DNA from: Phycisphaerae bacterium RAS1
Lineage (GTDB): Bacteria; Planctomycetota; Phycisphaerae; UBA1845; Fen-1342
Length of the DNA stretch: 64,000 bases
Reading direction: 5' to 3'
Assembly (NCBI GenBank): GCA_007859745.1
Contig: SMLU01000002.1
Location: 612,942 to 676,941, forward strand
The notes below the pieces were generated by a model. It was given only the letters and a program-made list of their open reading frames with translations, was not told where the DNA came from and searched no databases. This document shows, in pieces, positions 8,920-50,131 of the stretch. Position numbers and translations under genes: made by a program. Within the stretch, counting starts at the first letter, position 1. Each line of letters begins with the position of its first letter.

Positions 8920-8959
8920 ATAAAGAAGGCGTCCGCCGACGCAATCGTCAGCGGACGCC
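8920..8959 (-). terminator. Rho-independent terminator of the PEP-CTERM gene
   Basis: On the minus strand: 9-bp stem GGCGTCCGC/GCGGACGCC (8951-8959 with 8928-8936), one mismatch, 4 more pairs (CGTC/GACG) and a 4-nt loop, followed directly by TTCTTTAT (8920-8927). It lies just after the stop at 8986. Confidence 0.8.
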
Positions 8960-8985
8960 GAGGAACTCAAATCAGGCCTGCAAAC

Positions 8986-9729
8986 TTAGGCGCTGCGGCG
9001 CTTCAGCATGCGAGCCATCGCCAGACCCATCGCACCCAGCACAGCCGCGGCCGGAGCCGGAACCGTGACGAGCTGATCCTGCGAACGACCCGAACGATCG
9101 GCATCGCTCCACAGGTTCATGATGCGGACATCGCCGATGCCGGCGTTGGGATTCTGGGCCTTCCAGGCGTTGGCCGCGGAAACCCAGGCTTCAGCCTGAA
9201 TACGCAGCGGCGAGCCGGCGCTGGCATGCCAGCCTTCACCCTCGAGGTACCAGACCGCGAGTTGCAGGGCGCGAGCCGAGAACTCACGATTCGGTCCGGG
9301 GGTGTAGTTGTAACCCGCCAGAGCCTGGTTGCGGAACTGCGAGTACAGGTAGGCCGTGCGGTTGTCCAGCGTATCCGACGTGCTGCCGCCCGGACCCTGG
9401 TTGCCGTCCTGGCCGCCGAGGCCGCCGGCCGTCGCGAACGTGTTGACGTCAACCCAGTACACGCCGGGGACGTTGACGTTCTCGTTGAATTCAACGCAGA
9501 ACGTCTCGAACGAGTTGGCATCAATGTCAGACGCGGCGCCCTTGATGACCTGGTTGGCAAAGCCACCCAGCGGCGTGATCTTGAACTCACCGCCGTTGCC
9601 ATCAAAGTAGCCGTTGATGCGCGTGATGTTGATCTGCTTATTGGCGGGCTGAGAAAAATCAGCCAGCGCCGTCGCGCTGAACGCCAGCGCGAAGCCCGAA
9701 ACGATCAGACCTTTCATAAAGTTCTTCAT
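8986..9729 (-). CDS. Secreted protein with PEP-CTERM/VPAP-type sorting tail
   Basis: 247-aa surface or extracellular protein. Signal peptide at 1-23 ('GLIVSGFALAFSATALA'). The middle contains 'FETFCVEFNENVNVPG' and 'NRTAYLYSQFRNQALAGY...ARALQLAVWYLEGEG', a pattern common to many PEP-CTERM proteins (one Cys, thioester-like surface domain architecture). The C-terminus 'VTVPAPAAAVLGAMGLAMAR' plus 'MLKRRSA' is a short motif, one transmembrane segment and a basic end, as recognised by exosortase-family enzymes. The ATG at 9729 has GGAGGG 6 nt upstream. It carries its own terminator and is flanked by a MITE-like element, so it is likely monocistronic and strongly expressed. Ligand unknown. Confidence 0.85.
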   Translation of the reverse strand: MKNFMKGLIVSGFALAFSATALADFSQPANKQINITRINGYFDGNGGEFKITPLGGFANQVIKGAASDIDANSFETFCVEFNENVNVPGVYWVDVNTFATAGGLGGQDGNQGPGGSTSDTLDNRTAYLYSQFRNQALAGYNYTPGPNREFSARALQLAVWYLEGEGWHASAGSPLRIQAEAWVSAANAWKAQNPNAGIGDVRIMNLWSDADRSGRSQDQLVTVPAPAAAVLGAMGLAMARMLKRRSA

Positions 9730-44611: not shown

Positions 44612-45649
44612 TTATGAGAACAGCGTCGGCTGGTCGACGGAATCCTCGCGACGGGTCGGCGCGGCGAGGCCGAGATGTTCGTATGCGGCCGGGCGGGCCA
44701 TGCGGCCGCGCGGGGTGCGGATGACGAAGCCGATCTGGAGCAGGTAGGGCTCGACCACGTCTTCGAGCGTGTCGCGCTCATGGCCCATGCTGGCGGCGAT
44801 GGCTTCGATGCCTGCGGGGCCGCCGTCGTAGTGCTTGATGAGCGCGTGCAGGTAGCCGCGGTCGAGCGTGTCGAGGCCGAGCTTGTCGATCTGCAGGATT
44901 TCCATGGTTGCGTCGATCGCCGCCGCGGTCAGCCGGCCGTCGCCGCGCACGTCGGCGTAGTCGCGCGAGCGGCGCAGCAGGCGGTTGACGATGCGCGGCG
45001 TGCCGCGCGAGCGCTCGGCGAGCCGCTGCAACGCCGTCGGCTCGGCCTTAACGCTCAACAGTTCGGCGTTGCGGCGGACGATGCAGACCAGCTCCTCGGG
45101 CGCGTAGTACTGAAGATGAAAATGGTGGCCGAAGCGGCCGTGCAGGGCGGCGGAGAGCAGGCCGGGCCGCGTGGTCGCGCCGACCAGGGTGAAGCGCTTG
45201 AGAGCGAAGTTGACGGTCCGCCCGCCGATGCCGCTTTCGGTGGTGTAATCGACGCGGAAGTCTTCCATCGCGGGGTAAAGGAATTCCTCGACGACCTTGC
45301 TGAGGCGGTGAATCTCGTCGATGAAGAGCACGTCGCCGGTTTCGAGCTGCGTGAGCATCATCATCAGGTCGCCCTGGCGCGTGACGGCTGGGCCGCTGGT
45401 GACGCGGATGGTGCGGCCCATTTCGCTCGCGACGATGTGGGCGAGCGTGGTTTTCCCCAGGCCGGGCGGGCCGTCGAGCAGGACGTGGTCCATCGGTTCG
45501 CGGCGCTTGAGTGCGGCCTGCAGGGCGATGCGAAGCTGCTCGCGGACGATTTCCTGGCCGATGCAATCGTCGAGGGTGCGCGGTCGGAGCGAATTGAGAT
45601 AGCTGTCTTCATCCGGGCCGGGCTGAGTGAAGACGCGCTCGATGGCCAT
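44612..45649 (-). CDS. ruvB: Holliday junction branch migration ATPase RuvB
   Basis: Hexameric AAA+ motor that pulls DNA through the RuvA-bound Holliday junction. 345 aa. Walker A 'GPPGLGKTT', 'LTQLETGDVLFIDEIHRLSK' (Walker B DEIH), 'AMEDFRVDYTTESGIGGRTV', sensor 1 'LVGATTRPGLLSAALHGRFG', sensor 2 'RGTPRIVNRLLRRSRDYADV', and the C-terminal winged helix 'IGFVIRTPRGRMARPAAYEH'. Start MAIERVF chosen; an ATG 36 nt upstream adds non-conserved residues. Follows ruvA by 165 bp in the same direction. Confidence 0.97.
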   Translation of the reverse strand: MAIERVFTQPGPDEDSYLNSLRPRTLDDCIGQEIVREQLRIALQAALKRREPMDHVLLDGPPGLGKTTLAHIVASEMGRTIRVTSGPAVTRQGDLMMMLTQLETGDVLFIDEIHRLSKVVEEFLYPAMEDFRVDYTTESGIGGRTVNFALKRFTLVGATTRPGLLSAALHGRFGHHFHLQYYAPEELVCIVRRNAELLSVKAEPTALQRLAERSRGTPRIVNRLLRRSRDYADVRGDGRLTAAAIDATMEILQIDKLGLDTLDRGYLHALIKHYDGGPAGIEAIAASMGHERDTLEDVVEPYLLQIGFVIRTPRGRMARPAAYEHLGLAAPTRREDSVDQPTLFS

Positions 45650-45700
45650 GCCGCGGATTGTGGGGCGTGCGATGCGGGGATGCAACGCTGACGAAACGGT

Positions 45701-45775
45701 CGCGTCGGCGGCCGACTCGGAGGTCGGCCGCTACGTGGAGAACTCGGCCGACTCGGAGGTCGGCCGCTACGGTGA
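45701..45775. repeat. Direct repeat GACTCGGAGGTCGGCCGCTAC between ruvA and ruvB
   Basis: Two copies (about 45713-45733 and 45751-45771) of a ~20-bp unit CTCGGAGGTCGGCCGCTAC, plus 'CGTCGGCGGCCGACTCG' palindromic surroundings. It splits what is normally a tight ruvAB pair. Confidence 0.7.
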
Positions 45776-45814
45776 CGGGCTGGAAGACCATACCACATTT
45801 GCCGTTCGCTGCGC

Positions 45815-46435
45815 TCACGCCCCCTGCTTCACCCGATACGCGGCTTTCACCATCGCATCCGGCTCTTTCAGGGCCGGATCGGCCTTGACGGCTTCGGCGA
45901 TCCAGTGCTGGGCGTCGGCGCGGCGGTCGCCCCAGCTTACGAGAATGTCGACCGCGACGCGCTGCGCGTCGGTCAGCTCCGAAACCGGGAGCACGGCCGC
46001 CGACGGGGCGAGGAAGGGCTGCATGCGGCCGCGGAGCTCGGTGATCATCTGGGCGGCGCTTTTCTTGCCGACCTCGGGCAGCGACGTGAGCGTCTTGTCG
46101 TCGCCGTGCTCAATAGCGGCGGCGATCTGGTGCGACGGAACGCACATGACGCGCAGGGCGCGGCGGTTGCTGATGCCTTTGACCTTGGTCAGCTCGTAGA
46201 AAAAGGACCGGTCGGTTTCGCTGAGAAAGCCCATCAGGCGCGGGGCGAGCTGGCCGGTAGCGGGATTGCCTTCGAGCGTGTAGAGCGTGTGCAGAACAGC
46301 GTCGGCGCCTTTGAGCTTTGCCAACGGCCCGAGCGCCGCCGCCGGCACGAGGACTTCGTAGCACATCGGCCCGGCTTCGAGAATGGCGGCCTGGTCGGTG
46401 ACGTTGACGATGCGGCCGGTGATGCGCGTGATCAA
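45815..46435 (-). CDS. ruvA: Holliday junction binding protein RuvA
   Basis: Tetrameric junction-binding subunit for RuvB. 206 aa. N-terminal OB fold beginning 'LITRITGRIVNVTDQAAILE', HhH motifs 'FYELTKVKGISNRRALRVM' and 'LTSLPEVGKKSAAQMITEL', and C-terminal RuvB-binding helices ending 'AVKADPALKEPDAMVKAAYR'. The family start aligns with a TTG at 46435 giving M-ITRITGRI; the open frame extends 17 codons further but with unrelated residues. ruvC is not adjacent. Confidence 0.95.
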   Translation of the reverse strand: MITRITGRIVNVTDQAAILEAGPMCYEVLVPAAALGPLAKLKGADAVLHTLYTLEGNPATGQLAPRLMGFLSETDRSFFYELTKVKGISNRRALRVMCVPSHQIAAAIEHGDDKTLTSLPEVGKKSAAQMITELRGRMQPFLAPSAAVLPVSELTDAQRVAVDILVSWGDRRADAQHWIAEAVKADPALKEPDAMVKAAYRVKQGA

Positions 46436-46511
46436 AGCGTGCCTCGCGAAAGCCCGAATGTAGCTGATTCCGGGCGGTTTGCCCACGCATGCTCGCGTTG
46501 ATCACGCAGAT

Positions 46512-46808: not shown

Positions 46809-47042
46809 ATGCACACGGGCCTGCTGATGGCGAATCTCATTCTGCTGCTCGCCGCGAGCTACGCTCTGCCCGGGCTTGCGTTTGGCGTCATGTTTGTCTT
46901 TCGCGGCCTCGACCGCGTGGATGCGTCGGCGCATGGCGCCCCGTGGTTGGTGCGGACGATGATACTGCCCGGCGCGATCACCCTCTGGCCGCTGATGGCG
47001 CGGCTTTGGCTGCGGGCGGTGCGGGGCGAGGCTCAGACATGA
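46809..47042 (+). CDS. Small two-helix membrane protein, first gene of redox operon
   Basis: 77 aa with two hydrophobic segments ('LLMANLILLLAASYALPGLA', 'LVRTMILPGAITLWPLMARL'). Its stop overlaps the next start (ATGA at 47039-47042). Not assigned to a family; position and overlap suggest a small subunit of the membrane complex encoded downstream. Confidence 0.65.
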   Translation: MHTGLLMANLILLLAASYALPGLAFGVMFVFRGLDRVDASAHGAPWLVRTMILPGAITLWPLMARLWLRAVRGEAQT

Positions 47043-47227
47043 CCCGCGGACTGCGCCGCCGACACGTTCTCGCATGGCTCCTGCTTGGGCCGCTGCTCTT
47101 GGCCGGACTGCTTGCGGCGCTCCTGGCCCGGCCGCCACGGCCGGTCCAGACGCATTTGCGCGGCGGCGCCGCGGCGGGTCCCGAGTCGACTGCCGACGAG
47201 GTCACGGGTCGCGGGGGCGGGCGATGA
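47039..47227 (+). CDS. Small single-helix membrane protein
   Basis: 62 aa: basic N-terminus MTRGLRRRHV, one strong hydrophobic helix ('LAWLLLGPLLLAGLLAALLA'), then a ~30-residue Gly/Pro/Ala-rich tail outside. Starts inside the stop of the previous gene. Could be a small subunit or a membrane anchor; no family recognised. Confidence 0.55.
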   Translation: MTRGLRRRHVLAWLLLGPLLLAGLLAALLARPPRPVQTHLRGGAAAGPESTADEVTGRGGGR

Positions 47228-47253
47228 GGCTCTCTCACAATCGTCATCTCGAT

Positions 47254-47315
47254 CGGAGCCGCGCGCGTGAGCAAGCGGTTGTTCAGGCTCCGCTCCCTCA
47301 CGGTCGCGGCTCGGA
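47254..47315. repeat. Element with CCGAGCCGCG/CGCGGCTCGG ends
   Basis: 62-bp unit from CGGAGCCGCGCGCGTGAGCA to CGCTCCCTCACGGTCGCGGC + TCGGA. Near-identical units occur at 55117-55177 and, inverted, at 59360-59418; a partial one at ~53232-53275. Here it lies inside the redox operon, just before the ferric-reductase gene. Confidence 0.75.
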
Positions 47316-47330
47316 CAGAGGGGATGCCCT

Positions 47331-48401
47331 ATGAGCGTCGGATATGTCCCCGTTCAGTGGAATCGCCACAAGCGTATCTATGACGCGTGCACGCTGGGCG
47401 GCATCGCGGCCTACCTGGCGGCGTTCTTTCTGGCCGGCAAGGCGCTTTACCGCGGCGCGCACGCGATCAGCGATCCGATTCTGGCGATGCGCGCCCTGGG
47501 AACGTGCGCCTACGTTCTGCTGCATGTCATCCTAAGCATCGGACCGTTGGCGCGGCTCGACCGGCGGTTTCTGCCGCTGCTTTACAATCGCCGGCATCTG
47601 GGCGTGGCGACGTTCTTCGTGGCGCTGGGACATGCCGCGATCGCGACCGGCTTCTATCACGGCTTTGGCATCGTCAATCCGCTGCTGTCGCTGCTGACGA
47701 GCAACACGAATTACTCGTCGCTTACAGCGTTTCCATTCCAGGTGCTCGGTCTGCTCGCACTGGCGATTCTCTTTCTGATGGCGGCGACGAGTCACGATTT
47801 CTGGCTGAAGAACCTGGGCGCGGCGGCGTGGAAGCGGCTGCACATGCTTGTGTACGCCGCGTATGCACTTCTGGTGATGCACGTGGCGCTGGGCATCCTG
47901 CAAACGCAGCGTCAGGCGTGGTTGACGACGCTGGTTGTTGTGGGAGTTGCGCTGGTCGCCAGTTTGCATACGATCGCCGGGCTTCGCGAAATAGCGCACG
48001 ACGTCCGCGGCCGGCGACGGACGCCGCGCGGCGACGGAAGCTGGGTCGATGTCGGCTGCGTCGACGAGATCGCGGAGAATCGCGGCTGCACCGTGACCGT
48101 CGCGGGTTCCGAACGCATTGCCTTGTTCCGCCACGGCGGCTGCATTTCGGCGACGACCAACATCTGCGCCCATCAAGGCGGTCCGCTGGGCGAGGGCAAG
48201 ATCATCGACGGCTGCGTGACCTGCCCCTGGCACGGCTGGCAGTATCGCCCGGCGGACGGCCAGTCGCCGCCGCCGTTCGCGGAGAAGATCGCCACCTATC
48301 GGGTGCGGCTCGCGGGTCGGCGAATCGAGATCGACCCGCAACCGCTGCCGCCGGGCACGGCGGTTGAGCCGGCGCGAATCGAGGACGGGAAACATGGCTG
48401 A
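47331..48401 (+). CDS. Ferric-reductase-like transmembrane protein fused to a Rieske [2Fe-2S] domain
   Basis: 356 aa. About six transmembrane helices (~20-215) with histidines H65, H101, H171 and H184 placed like the haem ligands of the YedZ/ferric-reductase family. The C-terminal ~120 residues are a Rieske domain with C279-x-H281 ('NICAHQGGPLGEG') and C298-x2-H301 ('CVTCPWHGW'), all four ligands intact. Such a fusion could pass electrons from membrane haem to the iron-sulfur cluster or back. The next gene starts 8 nt before this stop. Physiological donor and acceptor unknown. Confidence 0.88.
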   Translation: MSVGYVPVQWNRHKRIYDACTLGGIAAYLAAFFLAGKALYRGAHAISDPILAMRALGTCAYVLLHVILSIGPLARLDRRFLPLLYNRRHLGVATFFVALGHAAIATGFYHGFGIVNPLLSLLTSNTNYSSLTAFPFQVLGLLALAILFLMAATSHDFWLKNLGAAAWKRLHMLVYAAYALLVMHVALGILQTQRQAWLTTLVVVGVALVASLHTIAGLREIAHDVRGRRRTPRGDGSWVDVGCVDEIAENRGCTVTVAGSERIALFRHGGCISATTNICAHQGGPLGEGKIIDGCVTCPWHGWQYRPADGQSPPPFAEKIATYRVRLAGRRIEIDPQPLPPGTAVEPARIEDGKHG

Positions 48402-49158
48402 CGGCGGCGAGTTCTATGTCGGCTATCTGGCGATGCCTCCACGGCTGGCGCGGTTATTACGATTGGCGGCGCCGAGCCTGATCGTTCTGCTGGCGGCGCT
48501 CGGGCTGGCGCTGGCGCTGGTGCAGAATGACCCCGGCGACGGCGAATGGCACGATGCCGCGGCGCGCGAATTCGTCGGCCGGGTGTCGGCGCGCCCCTAT
48601 CCCCATGTTCGCATCGGGGCGGCGCAATCAGGCGGCGCGACTGAAACGCTCATGCTGGTTGAGGTTGGCAAGTTCGGTGGCGGGCAGCGCGCCGCCGCGC
48701 TGGACGGGCGTGTCGTACGAATCAGCGGCTGGGTGCTGGAGCGCGACGGCCGGCGGATGATCGAAATGGAGCCGGGTGACTCGCTGCAGCCGGCCGATTC
48801 CGCCGCCGGCGTCGGCGTGGCGCCAGATTTGCGGCGCGTCGGCGTGCTGGGGCGCGTGACGCTGCGAGGCGAGATCATCGACTCGAAATGCTATCTGGGC
48901 GCGATGAAGCCGGGTGAAGGCAAGACGCACAAGGAATGTGCCACACTCTGCATCGCCGGCGGCATTCCGCCGATGCTGGTGACGATCGACGCCGCGGGAA
49001 AGCGCGGCTACATCCTGCTGTGCGGGGCGGACGGTGGAGCGCTTGATGAGCGGATACTGCCGTTCGTGGGGGACGCGGTCGAGATCAGCGGAGAGCTGGA
49101 GGAATGGGACGATCTGACCATATTGAAGATTGACGCAGGTGCGGTGCGGCGATTGTGA
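48394..49158 (+). CDS. Membrane-anchored protein with conserved Cys/His motif, redox operon
   Basis: 254 aa. One transmembrane helix (~20-42), then ~210 residues of mostly beta structure predicted outside. Key motif at 159-193: 'EIIDSKCYLGAMKPG' ... 'HKECATLCIAGGIPP', i.e. C166, H179, C182, C186, a likely metal or cofactor site. It overlaps the ferric-reductase/Rieske gene by 8 nt, so the two are surely co-translated. I do not recognise a named family; by context it is a partner in a membrane electron-transfer module. Confidence 0.75.
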   Translation: MADGGEFYVGYLAMPPRLARLLRLAAPSLIVLLAALGLALALVQNDPGDGEWHDAAAREFVGRVSARPYPHVRIGAAQSGGATETLMLVEVGKFGGGQRAAALDGRVVRISGWVLERDGRRMIEMEPGDSLQPADSAAGVGVAPDLRRVGVLGRVTLRGEIIDSKCYLGAMKPGEGKTHKECATLCIAGGIPPMLVTIDAAGKRGYILLCGADGGALDERILPFVGDAVEISGELEEWDDLTILKIDAGAVRRL

Positions 49159-49264: not shown

Positions 49265-49867
49265 CTACTTGACGCTGAATATGCCGCGGTCGACTTTTCG
49301 CACGTTGCGCATGTCGACCAGCATGTTGCCGACGCTCTTGGCCAGCGTCTTGTTTCGCGTTTCGAAACCCGCGTCGAGCACGGCGGTGGCGATCTCGGCC
49401 ACGCGCATCGGACGGCGCGCCGCCGTCAGCACCTGCGAAATGTAGGCCTTGAGCGAGCCTTCGCGCGCTCCGCCGCCACCGCCGGCAGCGCCCCCGCGAC
49501 GACGAGCGCGGCCCGCCGTTCGCCGGGCGGCCGCCGGGCTACCGACGCCCAGCGTGGCCAGGAACTGGTCGAGCGCGGCGATCTGGGCGGAAACGCGGGC
49601 CTGCTGCTGGGCCAGCCCGTTACGCGTGGCCTGGATGTCGCGGGTCATCTGGTCGGTCGTCGGGGCGCCGTTCCACGCTGCTGCGACGGGGGCCGCCGCA
49701 CGGACGACGGGCGCCCGTCGGCCGCGCCGGGCACGGGCGCGTCCCTTGCCAGGCGCTTTGGCTTTGGCGGGTTTGGCGCCGTGCATGGTGACCATATGTC
49801 GCCCGAGGTGCATCGGCAGTGCGAACGATCTGCCGCACTTTGCACATTTGAGTCCGTTCTTTGCCAT
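49265..49867 (-). CDS. C2H2 zinc finger protein with C-terminal HARE-HTH-like domain
   Basis: 200 aa. Residues ~8-30: 'CAKCGRSFALPMHLGRHMVT' + MH, a C-x2-C-x12-H-x4-H zinc finger of eukaryotic look. A basic Ala/Arg-rich linker (~31-60), a helical segment (~70-110), an Arg/Gly run, then ~135-200 'SLKAYISQVLTAARRPMRVA' ... 'LAKSVGNMLVDMRNVRKVDR' + GIFSVK, a winged-helix resembling HARE-HTH. Both ends should bind nucleic acid. Such proteins are seen in planctomycetes as nucleoid or regulatory candidates; role unproven. Confidence 0.75.
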   Translation of the reverse strand: MAKNGLKCAKCGRSFALPMHLGRHMVTMHGAKPAKAKAPGKGRARARRGRRAPVVRAAAPVAAAWNGAPTTDQMTRDIQATRNGLAQQQARVSAQIAALDQFLATLGVGSPAAARRTAGRARRRGGAAGGGGGAREGSLKAYISQVLTAARRPMRVAEIATAVLDAGFETRNKTLAKSVGNMLVDMRNVRKVDRGIFSVK

Positions 49868-50064
49868 GACAGTCTCCATTGAGGGTACGAAAGCGGCGAA
49901 AGTACACGCACGCCGCGCCGGATGCAATGGGTGCACAGCAAGACAATTCATTCGCGGGAATGGGAACTGGTCAAGTTCGGGCGCCACGGCAACGGCCGTC
50001 GCGCGCGCACGCCGACGCAAGGCCGTCGGCATGTACTTGGGAACGGGTACTGGGTCAGTTTGGG

Positions 50065-50131
50065 GGACCGGCCTCCGGCCGGTCTTGTTCTCGCCGACGA
50101 GGCAAAGACCGGCCGGAGGCCGGTCCCCCAA
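50065..50131. repeat. Inverted repeat pair GGGGGACCGGCC family, second copy
   Basis: Forward arm 50065-50087 and complementary arm 50106-50131. The arms are nearly identical to the pair at 21257-21335 while the centres differ. The surrounding 49868-50205 also has one GCCGACGCAAGGCCGTCGGC palindrome (50011-50030) and no gene. Confidence 0.8.

Follow-up and report, generated by a model that had tools for sequence, protein, structure and literature searches.

We identified a conserved four-gene membrane module, designated g1 to g4 (Table 1), in the 5.5-Mb genome of Phycisphaerae bacterium RAS1 (G000). It lies within the window, that is, the whole stretch of 64,000 nucleotides that was analysed (contig C2, positions 612942 to 676941). 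The module may constitute a transmembrane electron relay from the cytosol to the periplasm, a reading to which we assign a probability of roughly 0.55 and for which we infer the sidedness, the cofactors and the direction of flow. A soluble cytosolic donor would reduce the cytosolic Rieske cluster of g3, and in some lineages the donors may be Rieske-tagged FMN or pyruvate-oxidase-like enzymes encoded in the same operon. As in STEAP, NOX and MsrQ, the electron would then reach the outer face by way of one b haem, possibly two (H101/H184 and perhaps H89/H171), before moving on to the Cys3-His site of g4, the predicted periplasmic partner. This site might be a metal centre, with copper as the first guess, or a dithiol reducing a further periplasmic partner, while g1 and g2 may be small helical subunits that keep g4 attached to g3. 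A preliminary description of this DNA had read the locus as a four-gene redox module, and that reading is now backed by co-occurrence, two g3-g4 fusions, conserved overlaps and structure models; we further infer that the four gene products form one complex.

Table 1. Genes, domains and the Cys/His site of the module, with positions in the window
Feature	Position	Strand	Source
g1, small membrane protein, 77 aa	46809..47042	+	ORF calls
g2, single-helix small protein, 62 aa	47039..47227	+	ORF calls, ORFs between g1 and g3
g3, ferric-reductase-type haem b domain (putative) + C-terminal Rieske domain, 356 aa	47331..48401	+	
g4, N-terminal membrane helix + two OB-fold domains, predicted periplasmic, 254 aa	48394..49158	+	
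g3 residues 57-182, Pfam Ferric_reduct match	47499..47876	+	
g3 residues 237-334, Rieske [2Fe-2S] domain	48039..48332	+	
g4 residues 166-186, C-x12-H-x2-C-x3-C site	48889..48951	+	

Organisation and distribution of the module

On re-reading the sequence, the coordinates given in the preliminary description were recovered together with its two overlaps, the ATGA shared by g1 and g2 at 47039 and the 8 nt shared by g3 and g4 at 48394. Overlap does not extend to g2 and g3, which are separated by 103 nt. Alignment of homologues suggests that the true start of g1 is the second ATG, at 46827. The g1 proteins follow the consensus ...GxxFAxxFVxRGVxRxDPAA...FRxxIxPG..LWPxLLxRW, and the N-terminus of g2 reads MTRxxRRxHxxxW. 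No Pfam or NCBIfam family matched g1, g2 or g4 above cut-off, and a PHROGs search gave no match. In the flanks, RuvB- and RuvA-like genes on the minus strand (44612-46486), recognised by eye, lie divergent from and directly upstream of the module, and a minus-strand ORF at 49265-50131 encodes a C2H2-like zinc finger (CAKCGRSFALPMHLGRHMVTMH) with a basic segment after it, which is unusual in a bacterium.

The survey covered 246 genomes from the phylum. Of these, 27 matched the g4 protein query (17 full-length, one truncated in G016 and nine with the C-terminal domain only), the g3 profile gave 17 full-length matches, and the g1 profile matched 18 genomes, including one weak extra, G136. The genes for g1, full-length g3 and full-length g4 are found, adjacent to each other, in an identical set of 17 of the 246 genomes. 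Co-occurrence had been suggested as a check on the module, and it was borne out by this shared set as well as by the adjacency of g3 and g4 in the named loci.

A scan of the named collection matched 587 stretches (575 confirmed), and the best 80 of the 587 were used. According to the record titles, these 80 loci come from Planctomycetota, Alphaproteobacteria (Nisaea, Marinicaulis and Parvularculaceae), Gammaproteobacteria, Acidobacteriota, Gemmatimonadetes, Rhodothermia, KSB1 and others. Among these best 80, g3 adjoins g4 in 78, the remaining two (L055 and L107) being contig ends, and the gap between them is negative in 53 of the 78 loci and exactly -8 nt in 27. Of the 72 loci whose contig extends upstream of g3, 71 carry g1, a count to which L097 was added (it was missed by the 2-kb rule) and from which eight contig-edge loci were excluded; it is truly missing in L096 alone. 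Matches to g2 were obtained by blastp in 15 of the 80 loci, and the g2 slot holds a longer form (about 135-185 aa) in some phyla, several of these loci being titled Acidobacteria, Gemmatimonadetes, KSB1 or Rhodothermia. Rhizobium plasmids carry all four genes, annotated as hypothetical, hypothetical, Rieske and hypothetical, with g2 as a 53-aa gene. Pairwise identities of g3 and g4 are correlated (r = 0.76; 70 sequences from the best 80 of 587 loci), as would be expected if the genes travel together, although relatedness alone raises r too.

In two genomes (L019 and L022) g3 and g4 form a single ORF, which puts the Rieske end of g3 and the N-terminus of g4 on one and the same side of the membrane. 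The fusion fits the predicted topology, since a cytosolic C-terminus of g3 can continue into a cytosolic N-terminus of g4.

The ferric-reductase/Rieske protein g3 and its candidate donors

The ferric-reductase/Rieske fusion reported for g3 proved sound, both Pfam families scoring above cut-off: Ferric_reduct (PF01794) at 2.5e-12 and 47.4 bits (cut-off 28) and Rieske (PF00355) at 1.3e-15 and 57.5 bits (cut-off 20.3). The same search agreed with the earlier statement that g3 has no flavin or NAD domain. In an alignment of g3 from 72 of the best 80 of 587 loci (A5; 73 rows), H89, H101, H155, H171 and H184 are invariant, H184 lying just past the Ferric_reduct match, and H213 is kept in 72 of the 73 rows. 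All four Rieske ligands were present as described (C279/H281 and C298/H301, C-x-H...C-x2-H), each in 73/73 rows. The preliminary description held that g3 carries all putative haem histidines; this suits H101, H171 and H184, which align with histidines of E. coli MsrQ, while H89 is extra and not all of the conserved histidines need be ligands. In addition, R87/R88 of g3 align with MsrQ arginines, and sections of a 2013 survey of the ferric reductase domain (PMC3591440) state that in YedZ/STEAP proteins an arginine substitutes for the first canonical haem histidine and probably a single haem is bound. As H89 could pair with H171 in a second haem site, we leave the haem number of g3 at one or two.

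The structure model of g3 (pLDDT 91.8) consists of six long helices followed by the Rieske domain. Using VIA-align, it aligned with STEAP2 (Z 16.6, rmsd 3.5, 195 aligned) and also with STEAP4, STEAP1 and NOX5 (Z 15.5). K+R counts are 4.3, 2.3 and 3.7 for the loops expected inside and 0.4, 0.6 and 0.6 for those expected outside, so that both ends of g3 are predicted from loop charges to be inside, the charge of the N-terminus itself being weak (0.45 K+R). STEAP, NOX and DUOX are the closest folds to the membrane part, a likeness that shows no function by itself. They carry cytosolic FAD/NADPH machinery, whereas g3 instead has a Rieske [2Fe-2S] domain, which in the model takes the position of the NOX flavin domain on the predicted cytosolic side; also unlike them, g3 has a dedicated periplasmic partner in g4.

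The Rieske domain itself aligned with BphA3-type ferredoxins (Z 15.1, rmsd 1.9, 104 aligned, VIA-align), and b6f-type soluble domains such as 8hn2 rank lower among its matches. It shares fold and ligand pattern with the dioxygenase-type ferredoxins BphA3, NDO ferredoxin and CarAc, which normally donate to oxygenases; those are soluble, while the domain of g3 is membrane-anchored through the haem domain. A cytochrome bc1/b6f Rieske identity was rejected on the same alignment with the soluble dioxygenase ferredoxins.

By its profile match, six helices and aligned histidines in TM3 and TM5, g3 belongs to the ferric reductase domain superfamily, with haem binding putative. MsrQ (YedZ), the membrane subunit of MsrPQ, has a six-helix ferric-reductase-type haem b domain like that of g3, and only g3 adds a Rieske domain. 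Assignment of g3 to MsrQ was rejected at 44.6 bits against the NCBIfam cut-off of 130, and a single E. coli MsrP query at E 1e-3 found no MsrP in the best 80 of 587 loci or in L130-L151; on these two grounds the module was not taken as a member of MsrPQ. We filed it as a variant within the ferric-reductase-domain kind, neither MsrQ nor STEAP. A Rieske domain is listed among the bacterial extensions of the ferric reductase domain in sections of PMC3591440 (model M4). M4 shares the Rieske-bearing architecture of g3; it is mentioned in a figure legend, where an FMN domain is named as well, and those sections give no operon, partner or Cys/His protein for it.

The preliminary description allowed either quinone or a soluble donor as the source of electrons. 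The evidence leans towards a soluble cytosolic donor, because the Rieske domain replaces the NOX flavin domain and because some operons contain Rieske-tagged flavin enzymes, while a quinone site is still conceivable. In L141 and L143, genes encoding a Rieske-glutamate-synthase-domain protein (Rieske-GltS) and a Rieske-pyruvate-oxidase-like protein (Rieske-PoxB-like) lie upstream of g1-g4 on the same strand, and in L143 (7663-13807) they complete a six-gene operon with gaps of 25, 17, -4, -4 and -4 nt. Within the best 80 of 587 loci, one or both are also found near the module in L057, L059, L068, L087 and L099, among them Alphaproteobacteria and one Acidobacteriota record. Rieske-GltS is associated with the module but separable from it: 8 of the 17 genomes with the module have it, as do 12 of the remaining 229 (Fisher p 7e-6, relatedness ignored). 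Counted here were 16 full matches and four cut by contig ends, all beginning within the Rieske part; matches starting past residue 130 were excluded, including the high-similarity G024, G020 and G164 (start 134-137). The window genome gave no Rieske-GltS match, and the enzyme is absent from all seven module genomes of its class. Three further Rieske genes are all that the window genome has, and none of these is of the pyruvate-oxidase type. At L002:1486-2592 in the window genome (G000:C1 near 149036) we recognised by eye a fusion of a Rieske domain with an NADPH-dependent FMN reductase-like domain, and its product is a possible candidate donor for g3.

Alternatively, g3 might be fed by the membrane quinone pool, the Rieske domain serving as a side exit or regulator and g4 still acting as the periplasmic acceptor. 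The MsrQ/STEAP-like haem domain of g3 would suit such an arrangement, as would the module genomes of the window's class without Rieske-GltS, and MsrQ, which has been proposed to be quinone-fed and is called the quinone-binding subunit in parts of PMC8238504, offers a precedent. We nevertheless regard this as unlikely, since an invariant Rieske domain occupies the NOX flavin donor position and other lineages have soluble Rieske-tagged flavin enzymes encoded in the operon.

Other neighbours are less readily interpreted. The flanks of the best 80 of 587 loci contain genes for DinB (28 loci), NRDE/TANGO2 (26), a VTT-ATP-grasp protein (26) and an AhpC-YHS redoxin (18). These neighbours seemed lineage-specific in an initial cluster analysis, and seed searches then found them in several phyla, the loci being related and not independent. 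Among 22 further loci the set was found in L144 and L150 only, both of which carry the module. Some such loci add an OlsB-like GNAT and a PlsC-like acyltransferase (for example L103:10797-15444), and the VTT-ATP-grasp gene of the window genome is distant from the module. DinB, TANGO2/NRDE and VTT-ATP-grasp proteins do not obviously fit an electron relay. TANGO2 homologues are reportedly haem-trafficking proteins (PMC10470608), a report that is disputed (PMC12782551).

The Cys/His site of g4 and its stand-alone relatives

The residues C166, H179, C182 and C186 noted earlier in the last gene were found as described. Conservation of this motif, also put forward as a check, is complete in 17/17 full-length survey homologues and in 77/77 rows of a g4 alignment (A4; 76 of the best 80 of 587 loci, with L038, L070, L082 and L097 omitted). 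The spacing is exact in 80/80 of these best loci, the scan having been selected partly on the g4 cysteines and not on H179 or the spacing. Around the site D163, G169, M171, P173 and G189 are invariant too, and among the window's 45 called proteins of >100 aa the pattern C-x12-H-x2-C-x3-C is present in g4 alone.

In the g4 model (pLDDT 94.6), a helix (16-43) precedes two beta domains with OB folds, and the ligands sit on two short helices (164-170 and 177-188) inserted in the second. K+R counts are 3.5 ahead of the membrane helix and 1.4 past it. The g4 sequence profile found no known structure below E 0.75. The model returned generic OB-fold matches only (best Z 7.4; Foldseek, VIA-align), where absence from the lists shows nothing, and this held also for the comparison with Sco/CuA-type copper proteins, the matches again being generic OB folds of up to Z 7.4; the site chemistry thus has no known redox or copper protein behind it. 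DUF5818 (PF19135) matched 40 residues at the end of g4 (E 0.0042, 17 bits), with the Cys/His site outside the match, and was rejected against a cut-off of 27 bits.

The second OB domain is a shared domain, since a profile built from seven stand-alone proteins recognises the g4 C-terminal domain in G000 (E 6e-14). The stand-alone forms have a Cys followed by H-x2-C-x3-C, with a slightly variable first spacing, and by eye they look secreted and Sec-exported. Two of their genes adjoin CusA/CzcA pumps, one is near a DMSO-reductase-II-type operon and one is beside a gene for a small Rieske protein (L185); the truncated g4 of G016 adjoins a Rieske-GltS gene. The two small secreted Cys/His OB proteins beside the pumps (L136:4890-5246 and L137 near 8950-9150) are candidate periplasmic metal-binding proteins. 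At L134:8492-8890 a paralogue of the stand-alone domain has lost its cysteines and histidine and lies beside an intact copy.

The suggestion of copper for the g4 site is a guess, prompted by its combination of Met, Cys and His, by presumed export through Sec and by the neighbouring pumps. A periplasmic Fe-S cluster is unlikely, because few g4 N-termini are of the twin-arginine type (a loose pattern in 13 of the 77 rows of A4) and the stand-alone relatives look Sec-exported. The site could instead be structural zinc or a metal store or sensor, with g3 reducing free Fe(III) or Cu(II) in the manner of STEAP and g4 binding or handing over the metal. Although the STEAP similarity of g3, the stand-alone domains beside CusA/CzcA pumps and a CopD gene downstream of the module in Rhizobium loci would all agree with this, we consider it rather improbable: no metal transporter was found as a general neighbour of the full module in the best 80 of 587 loci, and an invariant methionine (M171) near three cysteines and one histidine is unusual for a zinc-only structural site.

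Least credible is an inward flow, in which electrons from a periplasmic donor would pass through g4 and g3 to the cytosolic Rieske domain and on to the Rieske-tagged GltS-/PoxB-like enzymes. PoxB-type enzymes, however, are themselves electron sources. The sequence itself leaves the direction free and titles of PDB entries indicate that Rieske ferredoxins of this fold usually donate to oxygenases, but the characterised same-fold relatives STEAP, NOX and MsrQ export electrons according to parts of PMC3591440 and PMC5676040.

Significance of the module

The fold classes involved are already known, and a Rieske-bearing ferric reductase architecture was listed in 2013. The open-licence literature searched yielded no account of the four-gene module, of the periplasmic protein or of the Rieske-tagged donors, the Rieske-tagged GltS-/PoxB-like enzymes included. 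More tentatively than for the relay as such, we suggest that Rieske-to-Rieske input replaces flavin in a STEAP/NOX-type haem channel, and that the output is a new Cys3-His (+ Met) OB-fold periplasmic carrier, also used alone in metal-efflux operons; the whole would be a widespread bacterial form of electron export.

The module is a conserved membrane redox system of many phyla, whose partners are annotated as hypothetical in Rhizobium records. It also delimits a Cys/His OB-fold domain, as yet unnamed, that is seen again alongside Rieske proteins and metal pumps, and the operons that include Rieske-tagged FMN and pyruvate-oxidase-like enzymes offer directly testable donors. If the electron relay proposed here is correct, the STEAP/NOX/MsrQ superfamily would gain a flavin-free input.
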